From Acidobacteriota bacterium (GTDB lineage: Bacteria > Acidobacteriota > Terriglobia > Bryobacterales > Bryobacteraceae), in the NCBI GenBank assembly GCA_017304135.1, contig JAFLBB010000012.1, forward strand, positions 1-64,000: 64,000 bases of DNA, written 5' to 3'. Position 1 is the stretch's first letter; every line of letters starts with the position of its first letter. The notes beneath the pieces were generated by a model. It was given only the letters and a program-made list of their open reading frames with translations, ran no database searches and was not told the DNA's origin. The position numbers and the translations under genes are program-made. Shown piece after piece: positions 51,252-60,187 of the stretch.

Positions 51252-51299
51252 TTCCGCCAACCAGTTTCTGACCGGGTTCCTGCGAGGAGAATCGACATT

Positions 51300-53405
51300 A
51301 TGCACAAGCCGATTAAATACGTGGAAAAGGTCGTGACCGTGGCTGCCAACGGCGCCTGGCACATCTTCGACGCGCTGAATCAGTTCAACCAAAAGCCCTC
51401 TTTCACTCCCAAGTGGAGTGACAAACCCCTCCTCAAGAGCTGGCAGAAAACCAAGCCCCCGCTCGGCTGGCCCCGCACCACCGATTCCCTCTGCCCCACC
51501 TGCGTGCGCGAAGCGCGCCAGGAAATTCTCGACGGCAAGAAGGACTACACCGTTCTCCTCAATGAGAAGGTGGGCGAAATTAAGGCGCAGATCATCGAGC
51601 GCGACGGCAAGATCTGGATGGTCAAGGACTGCCCCAAGCACGGCCACTTCGAAGACGTCATGTCCATCGATCCGGTCATGTTCAAGCACCTCGAAGAGTC
51701 GTTCCCCGGCCGCGACATCCGCGCCCACAACGACGAGAAGCTGCATAACCACGGCTCGTCCACCATCACCCACGGCCGCGGCTCGGTGCTCACCATCGAC
51801 CTCACCAACCGTTGCAACATGATGTGCGACCCCTGCTTCATGGACGCCAATCAGGTGGGCTTCGTGCATGAGCTCTCCTGGGAAGACGTGAAGACGCTGC
51901 TCGACAACGCCATCTCCATCAAGCCCCGGCGCCAGATGTCGGTGCAGTTCTCCGGCGGCGAGCCGACCCTCTCGCCCTATTTCATCGACGCCGTGCGCTA
52001 CGCCCGCAAGGTCGGCTACACCAGCGTCCAGGCGGCCACCAACGGCATCGAATTCGCCAAAAGCAAGACGTTCAGCCGCCAGGCCGCCGAAGCAGGCATG
52101 CGCTACGCCTACCTGCAGTTTGACGGCATCGGCAACGAAGCCAACTCCCACCGCCTGGTCGGCAACCTCTTCGATGTGAAGATCCAGGCCATTGAAAACC
52201 TGCACGAAGCCGGCGTCACCATCGTCCCCGTCATCACCATCGTCAACGGCATCAACAACGAGCAGGTCGGCCACGTCGTGCAGTTCGCTCTCGACAATCC
52301 GAAGAAGATCCCCTTCCTCAGCTTCCAGCCGGTGAGCTTCACCGGGCGCGACGAAGAGGTAACGCCCGAACGGCGCATGGCGCAGCGCTACACCCTCTCC
52401 CACCTCGCGCACGACGTGAAGCGCCAGACCGGCATCGGCGAGCCGACCCGCGACTGGTTCCCCATCTCCTTCGTCTCCACCTTCGCTGACTGGGCCGACA
52501 TCGTGCACGGGCCCGAGCGCAACTTCGGCCAGATGAGCTGCGGCTGCCACCCCAATTGCGGCATCGGCATGGCCGTGATGGTGGATAAGGAAACCCGCGA
52601 AGCCAAGGCCGTCACCTCGTTCCTGAACGCCGACCAGCTCTCCAAGGACCTGATGCGCGTCAACGACGCCGGCCGCAGCAAACGCTTCGCCATCCTCGGC
52701 ATGGCCCTTTCGCTGATGCGCAACTACAACTCCTTTGAGTCGCCCACTCACTTCAAGCTCACTGACCTGCTCAAGAAGTTCGACAAGAGCTTCGGCGCCA
52801 CCGGCAAGGACTACGGCCAGGTGCACGGCGCCAACCGCCTCAAGGACATCGAACGCCGCCGCGCCGACCGCTGGAACTTCCTCTTCATCGCCGGCATGTG
52901 GTTCCAGGATCTGTTCAATTACGACTTCCGCCGCACCGAGCAGTGCATCATCCCCTACGCCACGCAGGAAGGCGAGATCAGCTTCTGCGCCTATAACACC
53001 GGCATCGGCTGGCGCAACATCATCGAGAAGATGCACATGACGGCCACCCTCACCAAGTGGTACGACCAGCACGGCCGCCACGAGATCTTCGCCGGCAACA
53101 AGAACGTCTCCCTCCGCTCCACTGACCACCAGTTGGACCTCCGCCCCGAGCACGTCAACTTCAAGAAGCAGACCGATCTCGACGAACTGGGCATCGCCAA
53201 GAACGCCCGCGAGGAAAAGATCCGCGCCCGCGACCTGAAGCTGAAAGTGCAACAGGAAGCCGAGAACGCCAAGATGGCCAAGCTCTACCGCGAGGTCGTG
53301 CTCAAGGAGAAGCGGCCCGAAGGCTTCGTCGGCATCGAAAACCTCATGGGCAGCGCCCCCAAGAAGCAGACCGCCGAGGAAGAAGTCGGCGCCATGGGCG
53401 ACTAA
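51300..53405 (+). CDS. Radical SAM enzyme, tetraether/membrane-spanning-lipid synthase-like
   Basis: 701 residues, GAGGAG before the ATG. Radical SAM motif Cys172-x3-Cys176-x2-Cys179 (NRCNMMCDPCF) with SGGEPTLSP next. In front is CPTC (Cys65, Cys68) and CPKHGHFED (Cys111); behind are CGCHPNCG (Cys414, 416, 420) and Cys549/Cys563 (SFCAYNTGIGWR). This multi-cluster layout and the TTDSLCPTC...CPKHG start match the COG1964 family, which includes archaeal tetraether synthase (Tes) and bacterial proteins proposed to join lipid tails into membrane-spanning iso-diabolic acid. Residues 590-701 form a charged helical extension. The product is inferred, not shown. Confidence 0.85.
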   Translation: MHKPIKYVEKVVTVAANGAWHIFDALNQFNQKPSFTPKWSDKPLLKSWQKTKPPLGWPRTTDSLCPTCVREARQEILDGKKDYTVLLNEKVGEIKAQIIERDGKIWMVKDCPKHGHFEDVMSIDPVMFKHLEESFPGRDIRAHNDEKLHNHGSSTITHGRGSVLTIDLTNRCNMMCDPCFMDANQVGFVHELSWEDVKTLLDNAISIKPRRQMSVQFSGGEPTLSPYFIDAVRYARKVGYTSVQAATNGIEFAKSKTFSRQAAEAGMRYAYLQFDGIGNEANSHRLVGNLFDVKIQAIENLHEAGVTIVPVITIVNGINNEQVGHVVQFALDNPKKIPFLSFQPVSFTGRDEEVTPERRMAQRYTLSHLAHDVKRQTGIGEPTRDWFPISFVSTFADWADIVHGPERNFGQMSCGCHPNCGIGMAVMVDKETREAKAVTSFLNADQLSKDLMRVNDAGRSKRFAILGMALSLMRNYNSFESPTHFKLTDLLKKFDKSFGATGKDYGQVHGANRLKDIERRRADRWNFLFIAGMWFQDLFNYDFRRTEQCIIPYATQEGEISFCAYNTGIGWRNIIEKMHMTATLTKWYDQHGRHEIFAGNKNVSLRSTDHQLDLRPEHVNFKKQTDLDELGIAKNAREEKIRARDLKLKVQQEAENAKMAKLYREVVLKEKRPEGFVGIENLMGSAPKKQTAEEEVGAMGD

Positions 53406-53470: not shown

Positions 53471-53503
53471 AAAGCCCCGTTGGGAATCTCCCAGCGGGGC
53501 TTT
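53471..53503. terminator. Bidirectional Rho-independent terminator
   Basis: AAAGCCCCGTTGGGA (53471-53485) pairs with TCCCAGCGGGGCTTT (53489-53503) around a 3-base loop, one G-T pair. T-rich tracts follow on both strands (TTTTCATTT rightward, TTTCCTTT leftward). It serves the radical SAM gene and the convergent small gene at 53547-53987. Confidence 0.9.
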
Positions 53504-53546
53504 TCATTTGTGTCGGGGTGGGTAGCGCCCGGTCGCGGGCACGACA

Positions 53547-54808: not shown

Positions 54809-54994
54809 ATGTCTCTCTTCCAGGATCTTCTGGAGGCGAGCCTGGCCAACAAACGCGGGCTCACCTTCTACCTCAACGGACAAACCGTCGCCGGCTACGT
54901 CACCAAAATCGCCGAGCGCACCGTCGAAGCCCGCAATCAACAGCACGACCGCATCATCCTACTTCTTGACCGCATCGATGGAGTCGCCCAATGA
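54809..54994 (+). CDS. Small hypothetical protein, Sm-like fold candidate
   Basis: 61 residues from ATG 54809; a TATATGAT box lies just upstream. After a short helix (FQDLLEASLANKR) come short strands GLTFYLNGQTVAGYVTKIAERTVEARNQQHDRIILLLDRIDGVAQ. A helix plus a small five-strand barrel with a Gly in the second strand is the outline of Hfq/LSm proteins; this is a guess by pattern. The stop overlaps the sulfatase ATG (ATGA), so the two are co-translated. Confidence 0.6.
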   Translation: MSLFQDLLEASLANKRGLTFYLNGQTVAGYVTKIAERTVEARNQQHDRIILLLDRIDGVAQ

Positions 54995-56862
54995 ACACCC
55001 CCGCCACCCGCCGCGCGTTTGTCGCCGGCCTCGCCGCCTCGGCCACCGCCGCCGCGCAACCCGCCTCCGGGCCTAAGCCCAACATCCTCTGGATCACCTG
55101 CGAGGACATGGGGCCGCACCTTCACGGCTGCGGCGACGACTACTCTGTGACGCCGAACCTCGACGGCCTCATGAAGCGCGGACTCTATTACAAGAACGCC
55201 TGGTCGAACGCCCCCGTCTGTGCGCCCGCCCGCACCACCATCATCTCCGGCATCTATCCCACCGCCAACGGCTCCGAGCACATGCGCTCGCAAACGCGCC
55301 TTGCGCCGGGGCAGAAGATGTATCCGCAACTGCTGCGTGAGGCCGGCTACTACTGCACGAACAATTCCAAAACCGACTACAACCTCGAAGAGCCCGGCAA
55401 AGTGTGGGATGAGTCCAGCCCGCGCGCCCACTGGCGCAAACGCACGCCCGGGCAACCCTTCTTCGCCATCTTTAACTTCATCATCACGCACGAAAGCCAG
55501 ATCCGGACGCGGCCGCATGACTGGAAGCACGATCCGGCCAAAGTGCGCGTGCCCGCCTACCATCCCGACACACCCGAAGTACGCAAGGACTGGGCGCAAT
55601 ACTACGACAACATCACCACCATGGACGGCATGGCCGGTAAGGTGATGGACGAACTACGCGCCGACGGCCTGGAAGAAGACACTATCGTCTTCTTCTACGG
55701 CGACCACGGCTCCGGCATGCCACGCAACAAGCGCTGGCCGTTCAACTCAGGGCTCAACGTGTCGATCGTGGTCCACATCCCCGACAAGTACAAACACCTC
55801 GCGCCGCCGGAATATCGACCGGGTGGCACAACCGACCGCCTCGTCGGCTTCGTCGATCTCGCTCCCACGTTGATGAGCCTCACCGGGCGCAAGCCCGAGC
55901 CCTATCACCAGGGCCAGGCCTTCCTCGGGCCGCACGCCGCGCCGCCTCGCGAGTTCAACTATGGCTTCCGCGGGCGCATGGATGAGCGCTACGACCTGGT
56001 GCGCACCGTGCGCGACAAGCGCTACGTCTACGTGCGCAACTACATGCCGCACAAGATCTACGGCCAGTACATCGCCTACATGTTTGAAACGCCCACCACG
56101 GCGGTGTGGAAGAAGATGTACGACGAGGGCAAGCTCAACGCCGCGCAGCGCAAGTTCTGGGAGACCAAGCCCCCCGAGGAACTATACGATCTCGAGACCG
56201 ACCGCGACGAGGTGAATAACCTTGCCGCTTCGCCCAAACACCGTGCCGTGCTCGACAAACTGCGCAAGGCCCAGCAGGAATGGGTAACCAGCGTGCGCGA
56301 TGTCGGCTTCCTGCCGGAAGGCGAAATCCACGCGCGCGCCGCCTCGGCCACGCCCTACGAAATGGGCCACGATGAGGCCCGCTATCCAATGAAGAAGATC
56401 GTCGCCGCTGCGGAACTGGCTTCCTCCCTCAAGCCCGGCGTCGAAGGCCAATTGGCGAAACTGATGGCCGACTCAGACAGCGCGGTCCGCTACTGGGGCG
56501 CGATGGGATTGGTGATCCGCGGCGAGTCCGCGGTGAAAGCGCACGCGGAGGCGCTTCGTAAGGGGCTCGACGATGCTGCGCCCTATGTGAAAATCGCTTC
56601 GGGCGAGGCTCTCGGCCGTTACGGTTCCGATGCCGATGCGCAGCGCGCCCTCGACGTGCTGCTCACGCTCGCGCCCGCCGATCAAACAAACGCCTTCATC
56701 TCGCTGGCCGCGTTGAATGCCATCGCCGCGATGGGCCCGCGCGCCAAACCCGCCGCCGCGGCCTTGCGCACGATGACCGTCGTCGACAAGCGCGCGCCAC
56801 AACGGCCAGCCAGTTACGGCGGCAACGTCGTGAAGAAGTTGCTCGCCGACCTCGGCGCCTGA
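54991..56862 (+). CDS. Secreted sulfatase with C-terminal HEAT-like repeats
   Basis: 623 residues; Tat-like signal (TRRAFVAGLAASATAAAQ). PNILWITCEDMGPHL, the formylglycine motif Cys-Ala-Pro-Ala-Arg (VCAPARTTIISG), FFYGDHGSGMPRNKRW and LEDLYDLETDRDE-like end (EELYDLETDRDEVNN) are typical. Residues 470-620 are alternating helices (VRYWGAMGLVIRG, VKIASGEALGRYG, ISLAALNAIAAMG), that is HEAT-like repeats, a combination common in Planctomycete and acidobacterial sulfatases. The CAPAR form is less usual than CxPSR but accepted by maturation enzymes. Confidence 0.92.
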   Translation: MNTPATRRAFVAGLAASATAAAQPASGPKPNILWITCEDMGPHLHGCGDDYSVTPNLDGLMKRGLYYKNAWSNAPVCAPARTTIISGIYPTANGSEHMRSQTRLAPGQKMYPQLLREAGYYCTNNSKTDYNLEEPGKVWDESSPRAHWRKRTPGQPFFAIFNFIITHESQIRTRPHDWKHDPAKVRVPAYHPDTPEVRKDWAQYYDNITTMDGMAGKVMDELRADGLEEDTIVFFYGDHGSGMPRNKRWPFNSGLNVSIVVHIPDKYKHLAPPEYRPGGTTDRLVGFVDLAPTLMSLTGRKPEPYHQGQAFLGPHAAPPREFNYGFRGRMDERYDLVRTVRDKRYVYVRNYMPHKIYGQYIAYMFETPTTAVWKKMYDEGKLNAAQRKFWETKPPEELYDLETDRDEVNNLAASPKHRAVLDKLRKAQQEWVTSVRDVGFLPEGEIHARAASATPYEMGHDEARYPMKKIVAAAELASSLKPGVEGQLAKLMADSDSAVRYWGAMGLVIRGESAVKAHAEALRKGLDDAAPYVKIASGEALGRYGSDADAQRALDVLLTLAPADQTNAFISLAALNAIAAMGPRAKPAAAALRTMTVVDKRAPQRPASYGGNVVKKLLADLGA

Positions 56863-56865
56863 CCG

Positions 56866-58272
56866 CTAGTTCTCGAAGTTGAGCCCGCGCTCGTGCGGGC
56901 TCTCGGCTACATTCACTGACGGCAGCCAGCGCGCCAGTTCGCGCTTGATCGGCGCATATTCAGGCTTCCCGGCAAGGTTCGTCCACTCCTGCCCATCGGC
57001 GGCGTGGTCGTACAACTCCTCCGTGCCGTCCTCATAGTGGATGTAGCGCCAGCGCTCGCTGCGCACGGCGTGGTTGTTCCGGAAATAAGTGGTCACCACC
57101 GGGCGTTCCCATGCTGCGGAAGGATCGCGCAGCAGCGGACGCAGGCTCACGCCCTCCAGTTCCGGCCGCGGCGGCAAGCCCGCCAGATCGCACAACGTCG
57201 GGTAGACATCAATCAGGCTCACCGGCCGCGAGCAACGGCCGCCCGGCTTCGTCACGCCCGGCGCGGACATCATGAGCACGTTGTGCGTCGCCTCTTCCCA
57301 CAGCGTGAACTTGCGCCAGTGCAGCTTCTCGCCAAGGTGCCAGCCGTGGTCGCTCCACAGCACCACGATGGTGTTCTGTGCATGGGCGCTCGCGTCAAGC
57401 GCATCGAGCAACTTGCCCACCTGCTCATCGGCAAAGCGGATGCAAGCCAGGTACGCTTGCACGGCATCGCGATACTTGCCGTTCTTAACGACCGAGGCAT
57501 GGTCCTTGGTTGGGTTGGCCCATTTCTTGCCGGTCGGCGGGACGTCGTCGAGGTCGTCATCCTTCACCCGCGGCATGCGCAATTCACTCTTCACGAACTG
57601 ATCGAAATAGCGCGGCGGCACATACCACGGCAGGTGCGGGCGATAGATGCCACAGGCAAGAAAGAACGGCTTCGTGCGCGGCTTCTTCAACTCGCCCGAA
57701 GCCCAGGCCACCACCTGCGCATCACCCATCTCCTCGTCCTTCACGTCTACGGGACCCCAGTCAAAGTTCCCTGAACCCTTGATACCGTTGGCCGGAGTGA
57801 CCGCCGGGCGCTTGTCGTCGGGCTTGTTCTGCTTCTGGCTCGGGAAGTAGTGGTCCCAGCTTGCTTCGTCCGGATAGGCCGTGTGGTAAATCTTGCCGCC
57901 GCCCATCACCTCGTAGCCGTGCGTGCGGAAGTGCTGCGTCACGGTCATCGCCTTGGCGATCACCGGCGACTTGCGCATCGGTTGGCTGTTGTCGTAAACG
58001 CCGGTGGTCGACGGACGCAGCCCGGTCATAATGCTCGCCCGCGAGGGGTTGCACAGCGGCGCATTGCAGTGGGAATTCGTGAACAGGACACCACGCGCCG
58101 CCAGGCGATCGAGGTTCGGAGTCTTCGCGTCGGGATGTCCGCCCAGACACCCGATCCAGTCGTTCAAGTCATCGATGGAGATGAACAGCACGTTCTTCTT
58201 CGCGGCCCTGGGCGCCTGCCCCAGCAACGGCGCGGCGGTGAGAGCGGAGAGGAAATGGCGGCGGTGGATCAT
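56866..58272 (-). CDS. Secreted sulfatase, iduronate-2-sulfatase-like
   Basis: 468 residues with signal MIHRRHFLSALTAAPLLGQ. KNVLFISIDDLNDWIGCLGG is the iduronate-sulfatase type of metal site, with the Cys-Asn-Pro-Ser-Arg formylglycine motif (LCNPSRASIMTG), GGGKIYHTAYPDEASWDHYFP, CGIYRPHLPWYVP and LWSDHGWHLGEK. It removes 2-sulfate-type esters from uronic acid or other sugar residues. It is convergent with the other sulfatase (stops 3 bases apart). Confidence 0.93.
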   Translation of the reverse strand: MIHRRHFLSALTAAPLLGQAPRAAKKNVLFISIDDLNDWIGCLGGHPDAKTPNLDRLAARGVLFTNSHCNAPLCNPSRASIMTGLRPSTTGVYDNSQPMRKSPVIAKAMTVTQHFRTHGYEVMGGGKIYHTAYPDEASWDHYFPSQKQNKPDDKRPAVTPANGIKGSGNFDWGPVDVKDEEMGDAQVVAWASGELKKPRTKPFFLACGIYRPHLPWYVPPRYFDQFVKSELRMPRVKDDDLDDVPPTGKKWANPTKDHASVVKNGKYRDAVQAYLACIRFADEQVGKLLDALDASAHAQNTIVVLWSDHGWHLGEKLHWRKFTLWEEATHNVLMMSAPGVTKPGGRCSRPVSLIDVYPTLCDLAGLPPRPELEGVSLRPLLRDPSAAWERPVVTTYFRNNHAVRSERWRYIHYEDGTEELYDHAADGQEWTNLAGKPEYAPIKRELARWLPSVNVAESPHERGLNFEN

Positions 58273-58287
58273 GACCGCCCCAGTGTA

Positions 58288-60126
58288 TCAACGCGCGAAC
58301 ACTTTTACGGGTGGAGCGGCCGAGCCGGAGACCGTCAGCACAAGGTCCTGCTCGCCCGATGCAATGCCCGGCGGGACCACGAGGTTCACCTGGTAAACTC
58401 CAGCCAGCTCAGGCGCAAGTCCCGCGAAACGTACCAGACAGCTCCGGCCCCCAATGGTGATCACCGGGAATGTGCGGGTTTGCGCCAGAGGCGCCGCCGG
58501 AGTGCCGCTTCCCGTGGCCGGCTGGTTGTCCACCGGCCCCAATCCTGTCGCATACAGATAGACGTTTTCGCCCGGTAGCAGCGGATTGGCGGCGGTCACC
58601 AGCGTGTTGGTATCGGCCCGCACGAGGACGCCGCGCACACCATCGCTGGTAAAGACGCCCGGTTGCGTCGTGAACACCGGAACATCCACCGGCGCGCTTG
58701 AGGCGGTGCCGCGTCTCACGGCGACGCGCGCGCTCGTCAGCCCGGCCAGTTCAAAGGGAGCCTGAAAGTTCACCTGCTCCAGTCCGTTCACGTTGGCCAC
58801 CGCATACAGCGGCGCGGGCGTGTCGTTCACCAGCACCGAGATCTCTTCCAGCGTCGTCGGTAGTGGCAGTGAAGTCGCTTGCCGGATGCCCGCCGCTGGC
58901 TTGGCTCCACTCACAAACGCCGTCGCCGCTGACCCCGGCGTCAATCCAGCCACATAGCTTGCTCCATTCACCACGCTCGATGAGGTGAGCCTCGGCGGTC
59001 CCGTCACCTCGATCCGCGAAATCGATCCCGTGCGCAGGTTGGCCACGTACACCTCGCCCGCGCGGTCCTGCCCGAAGGTGGAGATGAGGAAACTCGCCGG
59101 GCGCATCAACAGGCGGTTCACCCACAAGCCGTTTTCCTGGCCCAGCGTCCAGATGCGGCCGGAAGCGTAGTCGCCGTAAATATAGAGGCCGCGCAAGGAA
59201 GGCGACATCGATCCGCGATATACATAGCCGCCAGTGATGGAGACGTCTCCGTTCTCGCGCGTGTATTCGTGGATGGGGCGAACGCCTGTCGGAGTGCATC
59301 CCGCGCGCAGGCATTGCAGGCCCTCCATCACATTCCAGCCATAGCTCTCCCCGCCTTGGCTCGCGGCCGGCTGCACGTTCACTTCTTCGGCCCGGTTCTG
59401 GCCAACGTCGGCGATCCACATGTCTCCCGTGGCTTTGTCGAATGAGAAGCGCCAGGGATTGCGCACGCCCGTGGCCCAGATCTCGCGGCGGTGCGGCAGG
59501 TCGTTCACGAAGGGGTTCGTTGCCGGGATGCGATAGGCCGATAAGTCAGACTCGACGTCGAGCCGCAGCATCTTGCCGAGCAGCGACTGCGGATTCTGCG
59601 CGTTGCCCTGCGGATCGTTGGCGCTCCCGCCGTCGCCCATGCCCACGTACAGGTAGCCGTCAGGGCCAAACTGCAGTTGCCCTCCGTTGTGATTGGAAAA
59701 CGGCTGGGCAATGGTGAGCAACACCTGTTCGGAAGACGCCTCCGCCGTGTCGGCTCCCGCGCCGCTCATGCGGAAGCGCGAAATGGTGGTGGCGCCGGAG
59801 CGGTTCGTGTAATTCAGATAAAAATACTGTTTATTCTGAAATCCGGGCGGAAAGGCCAGCCCCAGCAGCCCGCGCTCATCTCCCCCGCCTCCGAGCACCG
59901 TCACCCGGTCGCGGATATCGAGCACCGGGATGTTCACCACGGCCCCATCGCGCATCACGCGCACCGTGCCCGCCTGCTCGACGATGAACAGACGGTTCGT
60001 GCCATCATCGGGCTGTTGGATGTCCACCGGGCGCGCAAACCCCGCGGCGATCTCCACCAACCGTGGCTCCTGACCAAAGGCCAATGCCCCGAAGATCAAT
60101 GCGCACATCCACTTCATCCTGCCCAT
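58288..60126 (-). CDS. PQQ-type soluble sugar dehydrogenase with Solibacter-type C-terminal domain
   Basis: 612 residues from the ATG at 60126, which has AGGAGA just upstream; an ATG at 60141 would add five. Signal to residue 18 or so. Residues 25-375 form the six-bladed soluble aldose/glucose dehydrogenase-like propeller (PVDIQQPDDGTNRLFIVEQAG, GDERGLLGLAFPPGF, GDGGSANDPQGNAQNP, TGVRNPWRFSFD). Residues 385-612 are the TIGR03437-like domain (VVNGASYVAGLTPGSAATAF, EQVNFQAPFELAG, VYLYATGLGPVDNQP, GVYQVNLVVPPGI), known mainly from Solibacter. The second part is probably a surface or binding module. Confidence 0.9.
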   Translation of the reverse strand: MGRMKWMCALIFGALAFGQEPRLVEIAAGFARPVDIQQPDDGTNRLFIVEQAGTVRVMRDGAVVNIPVLDIRDRVTVLGGGGDERGLLGLAFPPGFQNKQYFYLNYTNRSGATTISRFRMSGAGADTAEASSEQVLLTIAQPFSNHNGGQLQFGPDGYLYVGMGDGGSANDPQGNAQNPQSLLGKMLRLDVESDLSAYRIPATNPFVNDLPHRREIWATGVRNPWRFSFDKATGDMWIADVGQNRAEEVNVQPAASQGGESYGWNVMEGLQCLRAGCTPTGVRPIHEYTRENGDVSITGGYVYRGSMSPSLRGLYIYGDYASGRIWTLGQENGLWVNRLLMRPASFLISTFGQDRAGEVYVANLRTGSISRIEVTGPPRLTSSSVVNGASYVAGLTPGSAATAFVSGAKPAAGIRQATSLPLPTTLEEISVLVNDTPAPLYAVANVNGLEQVNFQAPFELAGLTSARVAVRRGTASSAPVDVPVFTTQPGVFTSDGVRGVLVRADTNTLVTAANPLLPGENVYLYATGLGPVDNQPATGSGTPAAPLAQTRTFPVITIGGRSCLVRFAGLAPELAGVYQVNLVVPPGIASGEQDLVLTVSGSAAPPVKVFAR

Positions 60127-60187
60127 GTCTCTCCTGCCCATATTTCAGGATAGATGGCCCCGGCTGTGATAAGTTACACAATTCGCC

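Follow-up and report, generated by a model that had tools for sequence, protein, structure and literature searches.

A Tes-like radical SAM protein without N-terminal cluster ligands, nearly universal in Terriglobia, as a candidate iso-diabolic acid synthase of Acidobacteriota

Branched GDGTs (brGDGTs) are widely used climate proxies, and both their makers and their biosynthetic enzymes are unsettled. Acidobacterial homologs of the tetraether lipid synthase Tes have already been proposed as makers of membrane-spanning lipids (Zeng 2022, PMC8941075; Halamka 2022, PMC10087280). The stretch of DNA analysed here (the window: 64,000 nucleotides of contig JAFLBB010000012.1, from a genome of the family Bryobacteraceae, class Terriglobia) encodes a Tes-like radical SAM protein of 701 aa at 51300..53405 (+), which a preliminary description made from the letters alone put forward as a candidate for such a synthase. 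Does this gene encode the enzyme that makes iso-diabolic acid in Acidobacteriota, and does its protein keep the equipment for that reaction?

The open reading frame (ORF) runs from an ATG at 51300 to a stop at 53405. A Shine-Dalgarno-like AGGAG, read directly from the sequence, lies 11–15 nt 5′ of the ATG (51285..51289, +), and GC by codon position is 57/38/90%; because of these two signals and of orthologs with 75–83% identity, we treat the ORF as a real gene. An ORF of 793 aa on the other strand was rejected as a high-GC artefact, the Pfam, PDB and orthologue evidence all falling on the plus frame. Downstream, at ∼53472..53505 (+), an intrinsic-terminator-like hairpin and T run (AGCCCCGTTGGGA-ATC-TCCCAGCGGGGCT-TTT) can be read by eye. 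Ahead of the rubredoxin-like site, the protein opens with an extension of ∼50–60 residues (aa 1–60; 51300..51479, +) that it and its relatives of the same kind (together termed the window type) keep, and closes with a charged extension (aa 591–701; 53070..53405, +) that canonical Tes does not have.

Pfam finds a radical SAM domain (PF04055, E 5e-17) and an N-terminal zinc-ribbon/rubredoxin-like domain (PF23545, E 1e-15). Among NCBIfam models, that of Tes (NF045702) scores highest, at 315.5 bits; this is under its curated equivalog cut-off of 450, and we therefore call the window protein a Tes relative without assigning it to Tes. The TrsS model (NF045646) gives 206.7 bits, under a cut-off of 490. 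The sole close relative in PDB is Methanocaldococcus jannaschii GDGT-MAS (7TOL/7TOM), at E 3.3e-61 from the single sequence; with a profile of eight relatives 7TOL reaches 1.2e-80 and the next solved structure 5.5e-5, the structures that follow GDGT-MAS being MoaA and SkfB at E 1e-4 to 1e-5. AlphaFold2 run from the single sequence alone returned a mean pLDDT of 33.6. The Tes-type identity first given to the protein thus stands for the wider Tes family, on the 7TOL match and the tree described below, and falls for Tes in the strict sense of the NF045702 cut-off.

The same searches bear on a different reading, in which the protein would be a non-lipid core maturase or cofactor enzyme of the radical SAM superfamily that has kept Tes-like cluster sites by chance. 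Several maturase models do score weakly, as might be expected of such an enzyme, but far under cut-off and with the Tes profile ahead by >100 bits; moreover, window residues 93–589 align end to end with GDGT-MAS, its C-terminal lipid/cluster domain included.

According to the GDGT-MAS structure paper (PMC9433317), that enzyme contains a single rubredoxin-type iron (C9xxC12...C33xxH36) together with three [4Fe-4S] clusters. One is the SAM cluster; another, auxiliary and N-terminal (cluster N), has C73, C77, C80 and a histidine as its ligands; the third, auxiliary and C-terminal, carries a labile Met439. The same paper names the roles of Met439 and Tyr459 explicitly, has Gln268, Ser271 and Arg275 of MJ0619 binding 5′-dAH and closing the active site, and describes the roles of the remaining metallocofactors as unclear. 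The window protein and its relatives were placed in one alignment with MJ0619 and with acidobacterial Tes of the canonical type.

Most of this equipment is present. The first half of the rubredoxin-like site, C65-P-T-C68 (51492..51503, +), is found in 38/38 window-type and 14/14 canonical rows, the second half is C111-P-K-H114 (51630..51641, +; C33 and H36 of MJ0619), and the complete mononuclear Fe site C-x2-C...C-x2-H is present in all 38 window-type relatives. The alignment places the CxxxCxxC motif for the SAM [4Fe-4S] cluster, CNMMCDPC, at 51813..51836 (+; C172, C176, C179). Both the PDB search and the alignment find Q343-PVSFTG-R350 (52326..52349, +) identical to QPVSFTGR of MJ0619, so that the 5′-dAH pocket residues are kept as Q343, S346 and R350 (Gln268, Ser271 and Arg275); Arg210 of MJ0619 is one column off in the alignment, with R285 adjoining. 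For the C-terminal cluster, C414-G-C416-HPN-C420 (52539..52559, +) aligns C420 with C338 of MJ0619 and brings two extra, nearly invariant cysteines (C414, C416) that Tes shares just partly; the region 52896..52988 (+) then supplies M533 (Met439), C549 (C455), Y553 (Tyr459) and C563 (C470). From the MJ0619 numbering we infer that C420, C549 and C563 would be the cluster ligands. The Met439 position is kept in 38/38 window-type rows and Tyr459 in 35/38, and the remaining ligands outside cluster N in 37–38/38. CPTC, CPKH, CNMMCDPC and the five downstream cysteines (414, 416, 420, 549, 563) of the preliminary description were thus all found.

What is gone is cluster N. At the place of the Tes C-x3-C-x2-C-x2-H motif the window protein has an invariant H-x-H-G, H149-N-H151-G152 (51744..51755, +), and none of the four ligands (0/4; the columns read K/H/S/T). 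HxHG and the lack of all four ligands are common to all 38 window-type rows. CCCH is complete in 14/14 canonical rows; in a larger set, C80 and H83 are present in 26/26 canonical rows and C73 and C77 in 25/26, one row being truncated there. Judged by ligand residues, the window protein keeps three of the four metal sites of Tes and lacks the other: the tetraether-synthase ‘full Cys pattern’ that had been ascribed to it covers the rubredoxin, SAM and C-terminal sites and breaks down at cluster N, where all four ligands have disappeared. HxHG is perhaps a structural element, or a site for another metal. We know of no assayed Tes-family enzyme without cluster N, and its absence counts against reading the window protein as a membrane-spanning lipid synthase. 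Loss of four cluster ligands is also what a degenerate, inactive Tes paralog would display. Such decay is barely credible here: the gene is under strong purifying selection, the other ligands are kept in 37–38 of the 38 rows, the replacement motif is itself invariant, and this is the sole Tes-like gene in iso-diabolic acid makers.

A maximum-likelihood tree was built from 60 proteins (38 window-type rows) and midpoint-rooted; archaeal Tes is represented by one sequence, the MJ0619 stretch, and the program flagged several long branches. The window-type rows form one clade (support 100/100) on a long stem of 2.03 changes per site. With one archaeal sequence and a midpoint root, this clade groups with canonical acidobacterial Tes, bearing out the expected placement on the Tes side, and MJ0619 falls between window-type plus canonical Tes and a group of short paralogs. 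Within the window type, branch B1 (∼670–715 aa, with the charged C-terminal extension) comprises Terriglobia and the main copy of Pyrinomonadaceae; branch B2 (∼565–685 aa, extension short or missing) comprises a second copy in Pyrinomonadaceae and others, its rows forming two successive groups and no single clade. The charged extension noticed at the outset is therefore real, from about residue 591 on, and belongs to B1. Four Pyrinomonadaceae genomes (f33; G465, G410, G478, G480) have two window-type copies each, one B1 and one B2, with the long C-terminal extension on one; a division of labour between the copies is possible.

The short acidobacterial Tes-like paralogs (L232–L240; 430–520 aa) keep cluster N, and several are without the C-terminal cluster ligands. 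The cluster-N motif reads CPxDCGLCPDH in L232–L234 and L238–L240; L238–L240 (from Edaphobacter lichenicola, Occallatibacter savannae and one more genome) have lost the Met and the ligands of the C-terminal cluster, and are thus the window protein in reverse. Our guess is that the short paralogs are TrsS. One further Tes-like protein of 524 aa (L183/L241, on G499:C3) sits on a very long branch and has a degenerate cluster-N region, DPEACDCATTSH.

In a survey of the class, 295 of 299 genomes carry the gene (237 of 240 among those of high quality); since a few of the 295 have weak best matches only, window-type carriers will number slightly under 295. Identity to class orthologs is about 65–83% among the matches listed. 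Within the host family the mean identity is 78% for the window gene, 54% for the neighbouring queG and 51% for a TPR gene, a difference that places the window gene under strong constraint. A survey of 197 genomes of the phylum with the Tes profile found canonical Tes over cut-off in 26 of them, and many more with the window type; in the class genomes of this survey, canonical Tes was found in G047 and G078 only. Four genomes (G486, a Zodletone MAG with locus L141; G388; G395; G444) have canonical Tes and a window-type gene together, some also a short paralog, so one main type does not exclude the other. By hand count, a Tes-like gene is absent from 83 of the 197 phylum genomes (strongest match weaker than E 1e-30), among them every sampled member of f35 (18 genomes) and f58 (9 genomes), both families with good sampling. 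Plasmids searched gave distant radical SAM matches only, at <30% identity, and no homologous loci were found in the viral contigs searched.

Near-universality in the class and very slow evolution would suit the maturase or cofactor enzyme introduced above. With 83/197 genomes lacking any Tes-like gene, however, the distribution in the phylum is patchy and thus not that of a universal housekeeping gene; together with the model scores and the alignment over the whole of GDGT-MAS, this makes a maturase quite improbable.

Does the distribution match that of the lipid? Iso-diabolic acid has been found in subdivisions 1, 3, 4 and 6 of seven surveyed, in subdivisions 1 and 3 with a 20–40% share of the fatty acids (PMC13274423), and Chloracidobacterium has it too (PMC12816986). 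Named genomes were picked by a scan for an acidobacterial 16S pattern; they are mostly MAGs and include no Holophagae. Carriers among them are Edaphobacter lichenicola, an Edaphobacter aggregans MAG, Granulicella mallensis, Terriglobus albidus, Occallatibacter savannae, Acidobacteriaceae KBS 83, a Candidatus Sulfopaludibacter MAG, four Pyrinomonadaceae MAGs and a group-4 MAG; the gene was found in all checked named groups of the lineages that make iso-diabolic acid. A genome with two chromosomes (G375) also carries it, and we guess that this is Chloracidobacterium. E. aggregans, which makes iso-diabolic acid and brGDGTs, was reported to have a single Tes homolog, of 32% identity (PMC8941075, Zeng et al. 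2022); since its MAG has the window type only, that homolog is most likely the window-type gene. The proposal that this gene accounts for acidobacterial iso-diabolic acid accordingly fits the published phenotype at the level of subdivisions taken from the literature, the match being a correlation by group and not strain by strain. Two public records titled Verrucomicrobia and Acidimicrobiia (L095, L100) have an acidobacterial 16S signature and a window-type gene, the match in L100 having the same coordinates as in the Acidobacteriota genome G447; they are probably mislabelled Acidobacteriota.

The neighbourhood offers no partner. Divergently upstream lie queG and a TPR gene, in 7/20 and 6/20 relatives respectively, all of the host's own family; as the pairing is limited to that family, we rejected them as operon partners. 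No conserved neighbours were found outside the host family among the 20 relatives, so there is no operon evidence and the gene stands alone. Elsewhere in the window are two large beta-barrel proteins of the outer membrane, each with a carboxypeptidase-regulatory-like domain (PF25183, PF13620; 7518–10931 and 45400–48822, +), which are ordinary in large acidobacterial genomes, and two sulfatases on opposite strands (54991–58272) adjoining a glucose/sorbosone dehydrogenase-like gene (58288–60141). The host genome has no second window-type gene or canonical Tes, and no PF06050. It does have one BadF/DUF2229 protein of ∼1,170 aa, whose make-up we take to be PlsA/Ger-like; Thermotoga maritima likewise has DUF2229. 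On the strength of this protein, conversion of esters to ethers is possible in the host.

Our preferred reading is that the window protein is probably the membrane-spanning lipid (iso-diabolic acid) synthase of Acidobacteriota, a derived branch of Tes that would perform Tes chemistry without cluster N. GDGT-MAS joins saturated chain ends with two SAM cleavages and a C–S intermediate on the C-terminal cluster, and its active site itself binds bacterial ester phospholipids (PMC9433317). Given this binding and the kept coupling-site residues, coupling of iso-C15 chains would be the most economical reading. From the observed gene, ligand sets, clade and distribution we infer the substrate and reaction as follows. 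Two membrane-lipid chains, each an iso-C15 acyl (or alkyl) chain, would be joined by their tails into the iso-diabolic acid skeleton found in membrane-spanning tetraesters; ester-to-ether reduction afterwards would lead to branched GDGTs. The SAM cluster would generate a 5′-deoxyadenosyl radical that abstracts a hydrogen atom from the tip of one chain; the chain carbon would be kept as a C–S adduct on the C-terminal [4Fe-4S] cluster (C420/C549/C563, with Met533 labile); and a second SAM would activate the partner chain, whose attack on the held carbon would form the sp3–sp3 C–C bond. Acidobacteria are mostly aerobic (PMC5900883). More speculatively, dispensing with cluster N might be an adaptation to aerobic life that removes a surface, oxygen-exposed cluster, and electrons might be delivered via the rubredoxin-like site.

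A near-universal, slowly evolving distribution would also fit another core reaction. The protein could use the same fold and radical chemistry for a different lipid reaction (tail methylation, GMGT-like cross-linking or another branched-chain modification), with coupling left to, for example, an unrecognised Mss. Radical SAM proteins without a known function belong to the family (TrsS), the radical SAM enzymes Gms and Grs modify membrane-spanning lipids in other ways (PMC11868695), and the stem of 2.03 marks a big divergence from canonical Tes. We nevertheless hold this to be unlikely: the C-terminal cluster of the Tes coupling site is kept with its labile Met and Tyr positions, and class genomes of the Tes-profile survey beyond G047 and G078 have no other obvious Tes-family coupling enzyme.

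Taking iso-diabolic acid synthesis as the preferred function, we can go further, with confidence somewhat short of even. A separate lineage of synthase, near-universal across Terriglobia and found in several more acidobacterial groups, may perform Tes-type C(sp3)–C(sp3) coupling without cluster N and with HxHG instead, letting aerobic soil bacteria run oxygen-sensitive chemistry; it may then be a main enzyme forming iso-diabolic acid and brGDGTs in soils, and a gene marker for the brGDGT palaeothermometer. New here are the Tes subfamily without cluster N and its near-universality in the class. In the literature searched, a set that leaves out the key Science Advances paper, no Tes subfamily lacking cluster N is described, and we make no firm claim of priority. 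The subfamily offers one specific candidate gene per genome for the question of brGDGTs and iso-diabolic acid, and HxHG in place of CPxxCGxCxxH serves as a diagnostic motif for the window type versus canonical Tes. It also poses a mechanistic question, one metallocofactor of GDGT-MAS having been naturally deleted across an entire, highly conserved branch.

With GDGT-MAS/Tes (MJ0619, NF045702) the window protein shares the radical SAM core, the rubredoxin-like site, the C-terminal ligand positions, the Met, Tyr459 and QPVSFTGR; it differs in having HxHG instead of the cluster-N ligands, and in adding Cys 414 and 416 and the N- and C-terminal extensions, the first rubredoxin Cys being residue 9 in MJ0619 and C65 here. 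Canonical acidobacterial Tes (e.g. L033, L050, L182), from the same phylum and of ∼31–37% core identity to the window protein, has ∼530–580 aa and all cluster-N ligands, whereas the window protein has 701 aa and none. Mss of T. maritima is reportedly a bacterial membrane-spanning lipid synthase (Sahonero-Canavesi et al. 2022). PMC11604127 likewise treats Thermotoga Mss as a demonstrated bacterial synthase. Tail-to-tail joining of fatty acyl chains into (iso-)diabolic acid is the reaction that, by our proposal, the window protein would share with it; a Black Sea study handles Mss apart from Tes homologs (PMC11868695). TrsS (NF045646) and the short paralogs resemble the window protein in the radical SAM core and over part of the N-terminal region. 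In the short paralogs cluster N is kept and, in several, the C-terminal cluster lost, the reverse of what the window protein shows.
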